Assembly (NCBI GenBank): GCA_018333895.1
Contig: JAGXSJ010000047.1
Location: 1 to 32,598 of the forward strand
Origin: Truepera sp.
GTDB taxonomy: Bacteria; Deinococcota; Deinococci; Deinococcales; Trueperaceae
DNA length: 32,598 bases
Direction of reading: 5' to 3'
The notes beneath the pieces were generated by a model. The model searched no databases. It saw only the letters and a list, made by a program, of their open reading frames with translations, and was not told the origin of the DNA. Of this stretch, positions 12,489 through 22,053 are shown piece by piece. Every line of letters begins with the position of its first letter. Positions within the stretch are counted from its first letter, which is position 1. The translations under genes were made by a program, and so were the position numbers.

Positions 12489-14024
12489 CTAAGCCCGTTT
12501 TCCTAGCGCCTTTAGCACCACCCGCGCCGCGTTGCGGCCCGAGGCGCCCATAATGCCGCCACCCGGATGGGTGCTGGCACCGGTGAGGTAGAGCCCTTTA
12601 AGGTGGGTCTTATATTCTGCCGCCCCTAAAAAGGGGCGCAGTGCAAACATCTGATCGAGACTCATCTCCAGGTGCATCACATTGCCGCGATAGAGGCCAA
12701 GCTCGCGCTCGAGCCATAAGGGGTGCTGAAAGAGCGAGCCGACGATCTTCTCCTTAGTGCCGGGGGCATAGGCCTCAAAAGCCTCGAGGATTGAGGCCTC
12801 GACCGTCGGAGCGATATCATCCCAGGACTTAGCGCCTGCTAGCTCATAAGGAAAGTACTGCGCCCACAGCCAGAGCACCTCGCCGCCAGGCGGGGCCAGC
12901 GTGTCATCGACCGCACTAAAACTCATCGCCACAATCGCCGGGTCACGGCTCGGTTCACCCCGGAGGTAGTCGCCATAGGCGGCATTAATCTGGGCCCGGT
13001 CGCGGCAGATCAACTGCAAGGCGCGCCGCGCCTCATCGCCGGGATGGGCAGCGTAACGGATCTTGTCGCTTAAGGCCAGGCGGATGATAGCCCCAAAGCC
13101 GTTGCCAACTCGCATATTGACCGCACCGGGCGGGCGCTCTTCGGGTGCCAGTAGCTTGGTAAACGTCTCCACGGCATGGCTGCCAGCTAGCACCGCCTTG
13201 GCGGTGTAGGTCTGTCCGGCCACAACCACACCGGTAGCGCGATTAGCCTCGACCAGAATGCGCTCGACCGGCGCGCTAGTAAAGACCTTGCCGCTGTGGG
13301 CTGTAATATGCTTGGCCAGGGCCTGGGTGAGTTGCCCTGAGCCGCCGCGTGGCCGCGCCATGCCACCCTGATGGTAGAGCGGGTGCCAGAGCAAGAACGG
13401 AGCGCTGAGCGGCTCGCTAGGCGGCGGTCCGGACTGCGCCGCCATCCAGACTAGCGGCGCCTTGACCTTCTCCTCCTTAAAGTAGTGGTCCACCACCTCG
13501 CCGTAAGGCTTTAGTATCATTGGCAGGGCGCGTTGCCAGTCCTTGCGAAAGGCCTGGCCAAAGACCAGCTTTCGCCCCAGATTGAGCGGGCTGGGGCTAG
13601 TTAAAAATAGTTCCTTAACCGCGTTGGCAAAGGGCCGCCAGTAATTAAGGAAGCGCCGGTAGGCCTCGCCCTCGCCAGGGAACTTGGTTTCTAGCGCCTG
13701 AGCGGTCTGCTCCTCACTGCGGTAGATGAACACCGCATCGCCGTCGGGGTAGGGTGCAAAAAAGAGCGGATCGATATCGATATACTCCAGGCCGAACCGT
13801 GCCAGCCCTAACTCCTCGACGATCGGTGTCAGGCGGATCAGGATATGGGCGCTGCCACCTAGATCGAAGCGGTAGCCAGGCACCAACTCCTTAGTGGAGA
13901 CCGCCCCGCCAACCATGTCGCGGCGCTCAAAGACCGCCACCTTATGGCCTGCCTGGGCCAGGTAGGCGCTACTGATCAGGGCGTTATGCCCGGCGCCGAT
14001 GGTGATCACGTCGTAGTCCGGCAT
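12489..14024 (-). CDS. crtO: CrtO-type carotenoid ketolase / phytoene desaturase-family oxidoreductase
   Basis: '[72 protein letters not shown]' closely resembles the recalled Deinococcus CrtO N-terminus; C-terminal '[21 protein letters not shown]'. Confidence 0.82.
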
Positions 14025-17173: not shown

Positions 17174-18319
17174 ATGATCGTCACCCGTGAGATGCTCGAA
17201 GGGCGTGAAGCAGCCACGCTGGCGCCCTACGCATGCTGGGCCGCCCGCAGCCGGGGCCGGCTCTACCCCGAAGCCGAGTCGCTGCACCGCACCTGCTTCC
17301 AAAAAGACCGCGACCGCGTCATTCACACCACCGCTTTCAGGCGGCTGGAGTACAAGACCCAGGTGTTCGTCAACTACCAGGGCGACTACTACCGCACCCG
17401 GCTGACCCACACCCTGGAGGTAGTACAGGTCGGCAAGTCGATCGCCCGCGCCTTAGGGCTTAACGAAGACCTTACCGAGACCATTGCCCTGGCTCACGAC
17501 TTAGGGCATCCGCCGTTCGGCCACGCCGGCGAGCACACCCTCAACCGCTTAGCCGAGGCAGCCGGAGGGTTCGACCACAACCGGCAGTCGCTGCGGGTAG
17601 TCACCAAGCTCGAGCGGCGCTACCCGGAGTTCCCAGGGCTCAACCTGACCCATGAGACGCTCGAGGGGATCGCCAAGCATGAGACCGATTACGACGTGCC
17701 CAACACCGGCTGGGAACCAGGGCGGCCCAGCCTGGAGGCCCAGGTAGTCAATGTCGCCGACGAGTTTGCCTACAGCGCCCACGACCTCGACGACGGCTTG
17801 CGCAGCGGACACTTAACCCCTCAGCAGATCGTCGCCGTGCCATTGCTGAGTAGGCTCCTGGAGCAGCTAGCGATCGACCCCCACCGATTTACCGATCAGC
17901 ATCGTTACCTGCTGATCCGCAAGCTACTCGGCGAGATCATTACCGACTGCATCCACAACAGCGGTGCTGCGCTTACGGCAGCTGGGATAGCGACCTTGCA
18001 CGACGTGCGAGAGCACCCGCGGACGCTAGTCGGCTCCTCGGCGGCCATGGCGGCACAGCTACGAGAGCTTAAGGATTTTTTGTACCAGAACCTCTACTGC
18101 CACTACCGGCTGATCCGCATGACCCGCAAGGCCGACCATCTCCTGGAGCGGCTGTTTGAGGCCTACCTGGCTAGCCCTGAGATGCTCCCCGGCGAGATTC
18201 GGGCCAACGCCGAGGAGCGCGGGCTGAGGCGGGCAGTCATCGACTATCTAGCTGGGATGACCGACCGCTACGCGGGCGACGAGTACCGCCGCCTCTTCGA
18301 TCCACACACCCTGACCTGA
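17174..18319 (+). CDS. dgt: Deoxyguanosinetriphosphate triphosphohydrolase-like protein (HD domain)
   Basis: 'DRDRVIHTTAFRRLEYKTQVF', 'RTRLTHTLEVVQVGKSIARALGLNEDLTETIALAHDLGHPPFGHAGEHTLN', 'HNRQSLRVVTKLERRYPEFPGLNLT'. Confidence 0.95.
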   Translation: MIVTREMLEGREAATLAPYACWAARSRGRLYPEAESLHRTCFQKDRDRVIHTTAFRRLEYKTQVFVNYQGDYYRTRLTHTLEVVQVGKSIARALGLNEDLTETIALAHDLGHPPFGHAGEHTLNRLAEAAGGFDHNRQSLRVVTKLERRYPEFPGLNLTHETLEGIAKHETDYDVPNTGWEPGRPSLEAQVVNVADEFAYSAHDLDDGLRSGHLTPQQIVAVPLLSRLLEQLAIDPHRFTDQHRYLLIRKLLGEIITDCIHNSGAALTAAGIATLHDVREHPRTLVGSSAAMAAQLRELKDFLYQNLYCHYRLIRMTRKADHLLERLFEAYLASPEMLPGEIRANAEERGLRRAVIDYLAGMTDRYAGDEYRRLFDPHTLT

Positions 18320-18320
18320 T

Positions 18321-18460
18321 AGCGGTTTTCACAAATACTGAGTCGCCTTAGCGCAGGTATCATCTCTGCAAAGGCGCCCTGCGAGTAAACCGCAGGATAG
18401 AGAACGATTCGCAGTCCTGCGAGCACCCGCAGGATCAAACCAGATGATACCTGCTATTAG
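18321..18460 (+). repeat. 140-bp structured repeat, copy 1
   Basis: Aligned by eye to 20749-20888 with one difference (C at 18377, T at 20805). Contains a 13-bp perfect inverted repeat (18353-18365 / 18442-18454) enclosing two hairpins with CCTGCG/CGCAGG stems. Confidence 0.95.
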
Positions 18461-18462
18461 GG

Positions 18463-19524
18463 TTAGAAATCGCGGCGGGCCACAGCAAACAGCTCGCCGG
18501 TATCAGCGTTGCGGAACCAGGCCACCGGGACGCCGGGACGCTGGATGCGCAACATCAGCCAGGGGCTGGTCAGGGCCTGGGTGACCATGGCGCCAGGCGA
18601 GGGCTGGGTGAGCCGCACCTCAAGATAGACCTCGTTATTCTCCAACAGCAGGTCGGTGACGCTAACGCCGTAGCCGCCGGTCGGGCGCTGGCCGATAAAG
18701 ATGGCCACTACGCTCTCGCGGCGGAAGTCCACCTCGGGTAAGGGTGGTAGTGTTAGCTGCGCCCCGTGCGCTTGCTTCCAGAGGCCGATCAGCTGCGACT
18801 GGTCGGCAACGATACGGTAGAGCGGCCCTTCGGCCACCACCGCCTGGTTCCCTTGCGCCAACACCTCCCACACCAGCTCGCGGGGCGGCGGCTCGAAAGC
18901 GGCCAGATCGGTAGGGAGGCCTAGCTGCACTACCAGCGCGGTGCGCAGATAGTCGCCGATACCCTCTACCTGTTGCGCCGGCGTCACCGGGCGAGGCAAC
19001 ACCGCGACCGCCAGCGGACCGCGGGCCTTCAGCTCGGCGGAGAGCATATCGGCCAGGGCGCTATTTAAGTTACCCACCCCGCGCAGCCCCTCGACCCGTT
19101 CACGCGGCACCACGCGGGTGTTAAAGCCCGGCCCGGTCGCGGGGGCCAGCGTGAACCAGAGGCGGCCGTCGGTGTAGATGACCTCCTGGGTCTCAGTACG
19201 AGAGCGCACCACCAGGTCGGTAGAGAGGGGGATGCGCTGCACCGAAAAGAGGTTGCGCGGCAAGGGCGGCAGCGGCTCGCGGAAGTACGGCGCACCGCCG
19301 ACCGCCAGGGCCTCCGGTACCGCCAGCGGCCCTGCGGTCCGGCCTTGGCGCAGCTCATACTGCCGACCTCCTACCGTCACTAAACCGGGCGCTCCAAAGA
19401 AGTAGCTGTAGCGAAAATCGTGTCCTAAACCGTAAAGCGATACCTCATGCAGGGTAGGAAGCTCAGCCACTTCAGGCACGCAGGCCAGCAACAGCAGCAG
19501 CGCCACTACGGGAATGATTCGCAT
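18463..19524 (-). CDS. Secreted lipoprotein with C-terminal PrcB-like domain
   Basis: Lipobox-type signal 'MRIIPVVALLLLLAC'. C-terminus 'FIGQRPTGGYGVSVTDLLLENNEVYLEVRLTQPSPGAMVTQALTSPWLMLRIQRP' matches the recalled PrcB_C pattern. Confidence 0.78.
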   Translation of the reverse strand: MRIIPVVALLLLLACVPEVAELPTLHEVSLYGLGHDFRYSYFFGAPGLVTVGGRQYELRQGRTAGPLAVPEALAVGGAPYFREPLPPLPRNLFSVQRIPLSTDLVVRSRTETQEVIYTDGRLWFTLAPATGPGFNTRVVPRERVEGLRGVGNLNSALADMLSAELKARGPLAVAVLPRPVTPAQQVEGIGDYLRTALVVQLGLPTDLAAFEPPPRELVWEVLAQGNQAVVAEGPLYRIVADQSQLIGLWKQAHGAQLTLPPLPEVDFRRESVVAIFIGQRPTGGYGVSVTDLLLENNEVYLEVRLTQPSPGAMVTQALTSPWLMLRIQRPGVPVAWFRNADTGELFAVARRDF

Positions 19525-19597
19525 ATCGTCCTCCTAGGCCCATCATGCCTAGTTATGCTAGCAAAGATATGAGAGGGTGTTTCATCGAGCAGATTGC

Positions 19598-19603
19598 TAG
19601 ACT
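19598..19603 (+). promoter_or_regulatory. -10 box TAGACT, 6 nt before GTG of GT28-like gene
   Basis: TAGACT-ataggg-GTG. Confidence 0.65.
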
Positions 19604-19609
19604 ATAGGG

Positions 19610-20743
19610 GTGGCTACTCCCCAGCGCTTGCTGATTGTCTCCGCCTCGATCGGGGGTGGACACGTAGCGGCAGCTAAAGCGCTCGAGCAGGCCGCTTTAG
19701 AACGTGCGCTAAGTGTCCAGCACGTCGATCTACTCGACTATACTACCCTCCCCTTCCGCCGCCTCTATCAGCAGACCTATTTCGACTTAGTGCGCACCGC
19801 TCCCGATCTGGTGGACTGGTTGGCCAAGCGCCTCAACCGTCTGCCGGGCGAACGCCGGTCACGGCGGCAAAAGGTGCGGGCCAAGCTGATCCAGATGATC
19901 TCCTACCGCCTGCCGCGCTTAATCCGCGTCTATCAGCCCGATGTGATAGTACACACCCACTTCTTACCGCCGGAGATCCTCAGCGCCCTCGGCGGCAAGC
20001 AGCTCGCCCCGCAGGCGGTAGTAGTCACCGACTTTGTCGCTCACAGCCTGTGGTTACAGCCTGGCGTCGGGCGCTACTTCGTGGCCAGCGACGAAGTGGC
20101 GGTGCATCTGCATGCTGCGGGCGTCGAACTTGGGCGGATCAACGTCAGCGGCATCCCCATCGATCTCCGCTACAGCCAGCTGCTACCCCAAGCCCTAGCG
20201 CGACAAGGCCTGGGACTGCCCCAAGATCGCGAGCATCTCTTGATTATGGCCAGCGGCCTCGACGATAAGACCCTAACTGCGCTGCTTACGCAGCTCAAGG
20301 CCTTTCGCTGGCCGCTCTTTACCACCATCGTCTGTGGTCGCAGTCCGCACCTGGCCAGCTTGGTCAAGCAGCAGCTAGGCGACTATCAGGGGCTAATCCA
20401 GTTCCAGGTGCTGGGCTTTACGCTGGATATGCCGCAGCTGATGGCCTCGGCAGACCTGCTGGTGGGTAAGCCAGGCGGGCTTACTAGCAGTGAGGCTTTA
20501 GCGGCCGGCCTCCCCTTCGCGGTGGTTCAGCCCTATCCGCTCCATGAGGAGGCCAACGCCAACTATCTGCTCGAGCACGGGGCGGGGATGCGGATCGAAC
20601 CGCTGACACTGCTTAACCACAAGCTCAAGAGCTTTTTTGAGGACACCGACAAGCGCCAGAACATGCGCGCCGCCGCTCTTAAGCTCGCCAAGCCCGAGGC
20701 GGCCCAGACGGTGGTGGAGTCGCTGCTCAAGCAGCCGTTATGA
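19610..20743 (+). CDS. GT28-like glycosyltransferase (diacylglycerol glucosyltransferase / MGDG synthase-like)
   Basis: 'LIVSASIGGGHVAAAKALEQAA' and 'ADLLVGKPGGLTSSEALAAGLPFAVVQPYPLHEEANANYLLEHGAG' typical of UgtP/MGDG-synthase-type enzymes; GTG start. Confidence 0.87.
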   Translation: MATPQRLLIVSASIGGGHVAAAKALEQAALERALSVQHVDLLDYTTLPFRRLYQQTYFDLVRTAPDLVDWLAKRLNRLPGERRSRRQKVRAKLIQMISYRLPRLIRVYQPDVIVHTHFLPPEILSALGGKQLAPQAVVVTDFVAHSLWLQPGVGRYFVASDEVAVHLHAAGVELGRINVSGIPIDLRYSQLLPQALARQGLGLPQDREHLLIMASGLDDKTLTALLTQLKAFRWPLFTTIVCGRSPHLASLVKQQLGDYQGLIQFQVLGFTLDMPQLMASADLLVGKPGGLTSSEALAAGLPFAVVQPYPLHEEANANYLLEHGAGMRIEPLTLLNHKLKSFFEDTDKRQNMRAAALKLAKPEAAQTVVESLLKQPL

Positions 20744-20748
20744 CCTTC

Positions 20749-20888
20749 AGCGGTTTTCACAAATACTGAGTCGCCTTAGCGCAGGTATCATCTCTGCAAA
20801 GGCGTCCTGCGAGTAAACCGCAGGATAGAGAACGATTCGCAGTCCTGCGAGCACCCGCAGGATCAAACCAGATGATACCTGCTATTAG
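20749..20888 (+). repeat. 140-bp structured repeat, copy 2
   Basis: Second copy of the 18321-18460 element in the same orientation, one mismatch; ends 3 bp before the TAGACT box of mqnC. Confidence 0.95.
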
Positions 20889-20891
20889 TGC

Positions 20892-20897
20892 TAGACT
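20892..20897 (+). promoter_or_regulatory. -10 box TAGACT, 7 nt before ATG of mqnC
   Basis: TAGACT-cagcgcc-ATG; starts 4 bp after the end of repeat copy 2. Confidence 0.65.
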
Positions 20898-20904
20898 CAG
20901 CGCC

Positions 20905-22053
20905 ATGACGCTGCTCGATAAGGCGGCCTCGGGCAACCGGCTCAGCCCCGGCGAGGCCGAACAGCTCTACCACCTCCCGCTCTTTGCTTTAGCCGCCGCA
21001 GCGGACGCCGTCCGGCGGCAGCGCACCGAGCCGGAGGTTGTCACCTACCTGATCGACCGCAACATCAACTACTCGAATATCTGTAACGTGGGTTGTTCGT
21101 TTTGCGGTTTCTACCGCACCCGCCGCCAGGCGGACAGCTACGTGCTGAGCTTGGCGGAGATTTCCGCCAAGGTGCGCGAGCTCGAGGCGGTTGGTGGCAC
21201 GCGCATCCTGATGCAAGGCGGCGTCAATCCGTATCTGCCTTTTAGCTGGTATCTCGAGCTGCTAGCACACCTCAAGCGCCAGCACCCCGCCATCCGCATC
21301 GAAGCCTTCTCGCCCGAGGAGATCAAGGGGATGGCCGGCCTGACCGGGATGACCACCTTCGAGGTGCTTAAGGAGCTCCAAGCTGCCGGGCTCGACGGCC
21401 TGCCGGGCGGTGGCGGTGAGATCTTAGTCGATGCTGTGCGCAAGGCTAAACATATCTCCCCGGCGCGCATCAGCGCCGACGAGTGGATCGGCGTCATGGC
21501 CGAGGCGCAGCGCTTAGGGCTCTATACCACCGCTACTATGGTGATCGGCTTTGGCGAGACGTTTGCCGAGCGGATCGCCAGCATGAAGCGCGTGCGCGAC
21601 CTGCAAGACGCGGCGCTGGCGACTCACGGCAACGGCTTTTCGGCCTTTATCTCCTGGACCCTGCAGTCCAAGGGGGTGCGGATCGAGGGGAAGGTGCCTG
21701 GCGCTGGCGCCCACGAGTACCTGCAGAACGTAGCGGTCAGCCGCCTATGGCTGGATAACATCGTCAACTTCCAGGCTAGCTGGCCGACTATGGGTTACAA
21801 GGTGGCCCAGACCGCACTCTATTTTGGCGCTAACGACTTTGGCTCCACCATGCTGGAAGAGAACGTGGTCAGCCAGGCCGGTGCCAAGCACCGCCACACT
21901 CCCGAGCGCGAGATCGTGCGCCAGATCGTTGATGCGGGTTTTATCCCCAAGCAGCGCGACAGCCTCTACCGCATCGTCCGCACCCCCGATGTGGCCGCCC
22001 TCTTGGCCGCCAAACCGAGCATAGACTTTAGCTCGCTGCCGGCGATTAGCTAG
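20905..22053 (+). CDS. mqnC: Cyclic dehypoxanthinyl futalosine synthase (radical SAM, menaquinone biosynthesis)
   Basis: 'NINYSNICNVGCSFCGFYRTRRQADSYVLSLAEI' CxxxCxxC radical-SAM motif; 'ILMQGGVNPYLPFSWYLELL'; 'GLPGGGGEILVD'; MqnC/MqnE/CofH family features. Confidence 0.9.
   Translation: MTLLDKAASGNRLSPGEAEQLYHLPLFALAAAADAVRRQRTEPEVVTYLIDRNINYSNICNVGCSFCGFYRTRRQADSYVLSLAEISAKVRELEAVGGTRILMQGGVNPYLPFSWYLELLAHLKRQHPAIRIEAFSPEEIKGMAGLTGMTTFEVLKELQAAGLDGLPGGGGEILVDAVRKAKHISPARISADEWIGVMAEAQRLGLYTTATMVIGFGETFAERIASMKRVRDLQDAALATHGNGFSAFISWTLQSKGVRIEGKVPGAGAHEYLQNVAVSRLWLDNIVNFQASWPTMGYKVAQTALYFGANDFGSTMLEENVVSQAGAKHRHTPEREIVRQIVDAGFIPKQRDSLYRIVRTPDVAALLAAKPSIDFSSLPAIS

Follow-up and report, generated by a model that had tools for sequence, protein, structure and literature searches.

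The window, by which we mean the whole 32,598-nucleotide stretch that was analyzed, belongs to a Trueperaceae-like MAG of 2.84 Mb in 178 contigs and contains a conspicuous repeat whose two copies, at 18321-18460 and 20749-20888, are collinear over 140 nt with one mismatch (C18377/T20805). The first-pass annotation had described the pair in these terms, and as having unrelated flanks, and direct comparison bore the description out. A repeat search of the window extended the match to 147 nt at 98% identity (18321-18467 and 20749-20895), and no second repeat pair within the window approaches it. Copy 1 has an HD-domain gene on one side and a PrcB-domain gene on the other; the neighbors of copy 2 are an MGDG-synthase-like gene and a radical-SAM gene of the CofH/MqnC family. 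The open reading frame of the CofH/MqnC-family gene, listed as 20872-22053, begins within copy 2, and an in-frame ATG at 20906, just outside the element, is the likelier start. Each copy contains a 13-bp inverted repeat (18353-18365 and 18442-18454 in copy 1; 20781-20793 and 20870-20882 in copy 2) and two hairpins with TCCTGCG stems, all exactly as first reported, and the four perfect occurrences of the 12-mer GCAGGTATCATC in the window are confined to the two copies. The features are as follows.

18317-18319, unstranded: TGA, 5' flank of copy 1; the HD-domain gene upstream uses it as its stop codon
18320-18456, plus strand: copy 1 of the putative MITE, TAGCGGTTTTCAC...GATACCTGCTA, 137 nt, boundary by flank comparison of 62 copies
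18353-18365, plus strand: internal arm GCAGGTATCATCT of copy 1, an inverted copy of the right-end motif
18377-18397, plus strand: hairpin 1 of copy 1, CCCTGCG-agtaaac-CGCAGGA, its first pair lost relative to copy 2
18415-18434, plus strand: hairpin 2 of copy 1, TCCTGCG-agcacc-CGCAGGA
18440-18455, minus strand: right-end motif AGCAGGTATCATCTGG of copy 1, conserved across Trueperaceae, a candidate transposase-binding site
18457-18459, unstranded: TTA, 3' flank of copy 1, which does not match the 5' TGA
20746-20747, unstranded: TT, left target-site duplication of copy 2
20748-20884, plus strand: copy 2 of the putative MITE, CAGCGGTTTTCAC...GATACCTGCTA, 137 nt
20781-20793, plus strand: internal arm GCAGGTATCATCT of copy 2
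20868-20883, minus strand: right-end motif AGCAGGTATCATCTGG of copy 2
20885-20886, unstranded: TT, right target-site duplication of copy 2

We collected 66 copies with both ends from the assembly, 62 of them unique and with usable flanks. Comparison of these flanks and of the target duplications places the mobile unit at 137 nt and assigns the final bases of the 140-bp repeat to the target site, outside the element; the extent first given thus holds for the repeat and not for the mobile unit. The unit begins with T or C followed by AGCGG and ends in CTGCTA (short end signatures, AGCAGGTATCATC and AGCGGT). The left end is YAGCGGTTTTCA, and the right end, in the inward direction, is TAGCAGGTATCA. 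The terminal inverted repeats are short and imperfect: with the first base set aside, AGCGGTTTTCA and AGCAGGTATCA agree at 8 of 11 positions. Copies range from 97 to 162 nt, with main forms of 119 and 137 nt, which without the variable first base measure 118 nt (31 copies) and 136 nt (27 copies). The 18 nt missing from the 118-nt form take in most of hairpin 1, which is therefore dispensable for spread. The element is less than 500 bp long and without coding capacity, and it is AT-rich only in relative terms (52% GC, as compared with 62% for the window).

The annotation had proposed a BLAST search of the host genome, and that search did reveal further copies: some 40 were already found with 40 of 121 candidates in the assembly scored. 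The 5' end YAGCGGTTTTCACAAAT matched 93 sites at ≤3 mismatches, about 80 of them exactly or with one difference (control, 8), and the 3' end AGATGATACCTGCTAT matched 134 sites at ≤2 mismatches, some of which represent the internal inverted copy (control, 1). We estimate from these matches that the MAG holds approximately 75 elements. This count is a lower bound because nine contigs (C45, C46, C64, C88, C92, C103, C104, C137, and C168) break inside an element. The MAG is also partly redundant (contamination 8%), with identical stretches on C152/C154/C173, C5/C53, and C129/C131 (G000), and raw copy counts therefore need deduplication by flanks. Among the 351 pairs of the 136-nt form, 47 consist of identical copies at unrelated loci; on this sequence comparison, a recent burst in this genome is demonstrated. 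With genes called by a simple codon-usage method, 52 of 54 classifiable copies are intergenic, lying between convergent (13), divergent (13), or tandem (26) genes with no orientation bias.

The two window copies, judged from their relatives elsewhere in the genome, are independent insertions and not a local duplication, since their flanks are unrelated and each has identical counterparts on other contigs. Copy 1 has the same sequence as the C32 copy, down to the unusual first T, and nine copies elsewhere in the genome match copy 2 without a difference over 136 nt. A recent duplication of, or gene conversion between, the window copies, as first suggested, is contradicted by this pattern. Similarly, the mismatch in the hairpin 1 stem of copy 1 is real, but it is not a loss peculiar to that copy, being a subfamily state held in common with the C32 copy. 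It is extremely unlikely that both copies and the genes between them were moved or duplicated together as a local segmental duplication or a composite mobile segment: two direct copies do bracket a two-gene segment, but they differ from each other, the intervening genes (PrcB-domain and MGDG-synthase-like) are not obvious cargo, and the outer flanks do not match (TGA and TT), which argues against a composite transposon of the window segment.

Insertion is recorded in target-site duplications, the presence of which the annotation had recommended checking. A perfect duplication flanks 54 of the 62 unique copies, 32 of them with 3 bp and 22 with 2 bp; when flanks were re-paired, the number of matches was 14.5±3.1, with a maximum of 28 in 10,000 trials. 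The 3-bp duplications conform to TSA (TCA, 20; TGA, 12), and the 2-bp duplications are TA in 10 of 22 cases and TT, TG, AA, AT, or CA in the others. The target logo is C-T-S-A-G. Targets are mostly CTSAG for the 3-bp class and CTAG or C-NN-G for the 2-bp class, and the most common are CTCAG (15), CTGAG (8), and CTAG (4). Insertions often fall at stop codons because TGA and TCA belong to the target. No matching duplication was found for the remaining eight copies, copy 1 among them. The mobility and MITE character that the annotation had raised as a possibility are thus upheld by some 75 dispersed copies, by target-site duplications, and by a nested insertion on C11 (3852-4120; L072), in which a complete copy sits in the CTGAG of another, flanked left and right by TGA. 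The inner copy is followed by the remainder of the outer one and preceded by two extra 22-nt 5' ends. The 5' end is also doubled on C117 (L138), and 3' ends are doubled or tripled at L017 (C94), L136 (C112), L148 (C156), and L130 (C91). The 5' arrays could have arisen in two steps, an insertion at the internal CTGAG, which lies 18-22 nt in from the end, and then recombination of the nested copies with one another.

Other repeats were also seen. At L155 (G000:C40, about 12700-12980), a different element of approximately 250-300 bp, with ends CACCAGTCTCCAG... and ...TCGAAAAGCCCTA, sits within a MITE copy, at its CTGAG, and is bordered left and right by TGA; its transposase may be that of the MITE or a similar one. 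A palindrome-rich repeat of 150-200 bp (GGCGAAGCGCC, CCCGAACGAAGTGAGG) occupies L155:2495-2695 and has copies of 71-88% similarity on C43, C139, C30, and C108. Finally, a dispersed 17-mer, TTGTCGGGCGAAGCCTT, was found with ≤1 mismatch at L026:1522, L005:315, L022:80 (minus), L130:2166 (minus), and L141:2968 (minus); at L026 it is inserted within a MITE copy directly after CTGA.

We looked for a transposase that could mobilize the element. At the loci examined of five transposase families, PF01609 (DDE_Tnp_1), PF13358 (DDE_3), PF13586 (DDE_Tnp_1_2), PF13359 (DDE_Tnp_4), and PF01797 (Y1), no matching ends were found; the search of the genome itself for PF13586 and PF13359 gave no hit. The TA duplications prompted a look at an IS630-type gene on C125, which was dropped as a parent for want of matching ends. 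A search by element ends in the genome itself and in its relative Trueperaceae bin86 yielded no parent, and most of the inspected 5'-end matches at 3 mismatches from outside the family proved to be coding sequence. Plasmid and phage collections held no match to the element; in IMG/VR a 19-nt end pattern gave zero matches and the 16-nt 5' end gave six raw pattern matches. The parent may lie on contigs missing from the MAG.

These searches bear on the suggestion that the repeat is a REP/BIME-type palindromic element, mobilized by a RAYT (Y1 HUH) transposase and inserting without target duplication. The element is indeed palindromic, intergenic, and present in high copy number, and a gene of the kind that the annotation had proposed looking for does exist, a Y1 (IS200/RAYT-type) gene on contig C110. 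That locus merely has a copy of the element on the same contig, and the Y1 loci do not have matching ends of their own; no link between the gene and the element was seen. Moreover, bin86 has about 49 related elements yet no Y1 hit, and perfect duplications of 2-3 bp at the great majority of copies are unlike HUH insertions. We consider a REP-type origin highly improbable.

It is also very unlikely that the repeat is a structured noncoding RNA or riboregulator that became repeated by chance, the other identity that had been entertained for it. The fold is strong on both strands (z about -5), beating dinucleotide shuffles as RNA and as DNA (z of -4.6 to -5.2), and the copies are intergenic. The RNA minimum-energy fold is a closed stem formed by pairing of one TCCTGCG/CGCAGGA unit with the other, and in the DNA minimum-energy fold a branched form that uses the third palindrome wins. 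However, covariation across copies, which had been proposed as a check, does not exceed the level of shuffles: one double change was seen in 27 stem pairs among 42 distinct copies, a comparison in which low divergence limits power, and most stem changes break pairs. Rfam gave no relevant match either at gathering or at E≤1, half of the family (31 copies) lacks hairpin 1, and copies have no preferred orientation relative to genes. A promoter and terminator scan of the element found no such site and no sign of either role. Rather than forming an RNA gene, the internal palindromes probably represent additional copies of a transposase-binding motif, or sequence that promotes folding.

The right end of the element is conserved beyond this genome. 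The 15-mer GCAGGTATCATCTGG (≤1 mismatch) occurs in 13-84 copies in 6 of 37 family genomes, representing four genera, and as a single copy in each of two more distant genomes; control hits in the bearing genomes were zero. A scan of genome collections identified as carriers Trueperaceae bin86 (CP070651, G016), Ww127, HKST-UBA01, and uncultured Truepera AVDCRST_MAG86, and its five matches in unrelated phyla are about the number expected by chance for such a pattern. From this distribution the host probably belongs to Trueperaceae as well. Beyond its own MAG, related elements with the end AGCAGGTATCATCTGG are present in four or more Trueperaceae assemblies, and some of these have tandem arrays of that end. 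The approximately 49 elements of bin86 are about 100 nt long and have the common plan TA-AAGCAGGTATCATCTGG...GATGATACCTGC...GGCAACCGCTT-TA, the duplication being TA in 34 of 36. No long version was seen in bin86: for every right end found, apart from one by a masked stretch, a left end lies about 100 nt away. Ww127 and HKST-UBA01 have related elements together with tandem arrays of the left end in units of 20-25 or 32 nt. Arrays of AGCAGGTATCATCTGG with such units were found at L335, L336, L312, L303, L296, and L307 in Ww127 and at L343 and L291 in HKST-UBA01, and several of these stand alone, without a complete element.

Such conservation raises the question of whether the 16-mer is a site for a host protein (a regulator or a nucleoid or segregation protein) that is carried by the mobile element, the arrays of the relatives being functional. 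The exactness of the 15-mer core in dozens of copies across the four genera, its absence from controls, and the stand-alone arrays are in keeping with this idea. On the other hand, the motif lies 1-2 nt from the element end, beside the TA/TNA target base; searching by exact motif favors conserved copies; and arrays can also be produced when the element inserts into itself at TNA sites located 18-22 nt in from the ends, as at L072. We therefore regard a host-protein site as unlikely.

We conclude, with a probability of about nine in ten, that the repeat is a nonautonomous DNA transposon (MITE) of approximately 137 nt. It is short and noncoding, and it has many dispersed, near-identical copies, terminal inverted repeats, and a target-site duplication. 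The short, imperfect ends would be recognized by a DDE-type transposase acting in trans, with the 16-mer as its candidate binding site; the element would then be cut or copied and joined to a staggered cut, C-TSA-G giving a 3-bp duplication and C-NN-G, such as CTAG, a 2-bp duplication. Counting against the MITE reading are the lack of a parent with the same ends in our searches, the short and imperfect inverted repeats, and the eight copies without a duplication. In addition, a duplication of variable length (2 or 3 bp) strictly fits few IS families. Conceivably, if speculatively, the mobilizer is a transposase of a type linked to no known IS family, one that tolerates staggers of 2 or 3 bp and binds a 16-bp end motif common to Trueperaceae genera, with repeated self-insertion at TNA sites a short way in from the ends generating tandem arrays of that motif, which may serve the host as sites for protein binding.

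A MITE accounts for the visible repeat in the window and for part of the fragmentation of the MAG. For the Deinococcus-Thermus phylum it is a clear instance of a MITE that has recently undergone a burst and whose target rules, CTSAG and CTAG, can be read, and its family-wide end motif offers a handle for finding the transposase. The nested insertions and tandem ends suggest a testable path from transposon ends to minisatellite arrays. The annotation had recognized no named family, and in this it was correct: besides the lack of an Rfam match, the literature searched contains no relevant paper that pairs Trueperaceae or Truepera with MITEs and none in which the end motif appears. The family is new in the sources searched and recently active, and it is an element of a known type.

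How does it compare with known systems? The small noncoding repeats (SNR) of Deinococcus, in the same phylum, are short, dispersed, and intergenic, and the Trueperaceae MITE resembles them in these respects. Elements of the IS427/IS1031 type in the IS5 superfamily generate TA or TNA target duplications. Those of the MITE are mostly TA or TNA and resemble those of this type, of which the MITE is a possible member; among the elements examined in the genome and the family, no IS5-superfamily ends matched those of the MITE. In G012 (3,260,398 bp), a multi-copy, 825-bp IS5-type element (PF13586; for example, L248:954-1779) is likewise found in CTAG, and its ends, CTAGGTTCTGTTGACAC, differ from those of the MITE.

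Prokaryotic MITEs are described as gene-less elements of <500 bp with short terminal inverted repeats, flanked in younger copies by direct repeats, located between genes, able to form stem-loops, and mobilized in trans (PMC10969869). The Trueperaceae element falls within this definition, and it differs in that no parent IS was found for it and in its asymmetric ends, with the terminal motif repeated in inverted form inside. A precedent for the association of a MITE with a minisatellite is BrickBuilt of Porphyromonas gingivalis, a host-limited, intergenic MITE tied to a 23-nt tandem repeat (PMC4596501). We claim no sequence relation between the two; the arrays of Trueperaceae are made up of repeated element ends, in units of 20-25 or 32 nt, and are found mostly in the relatives.
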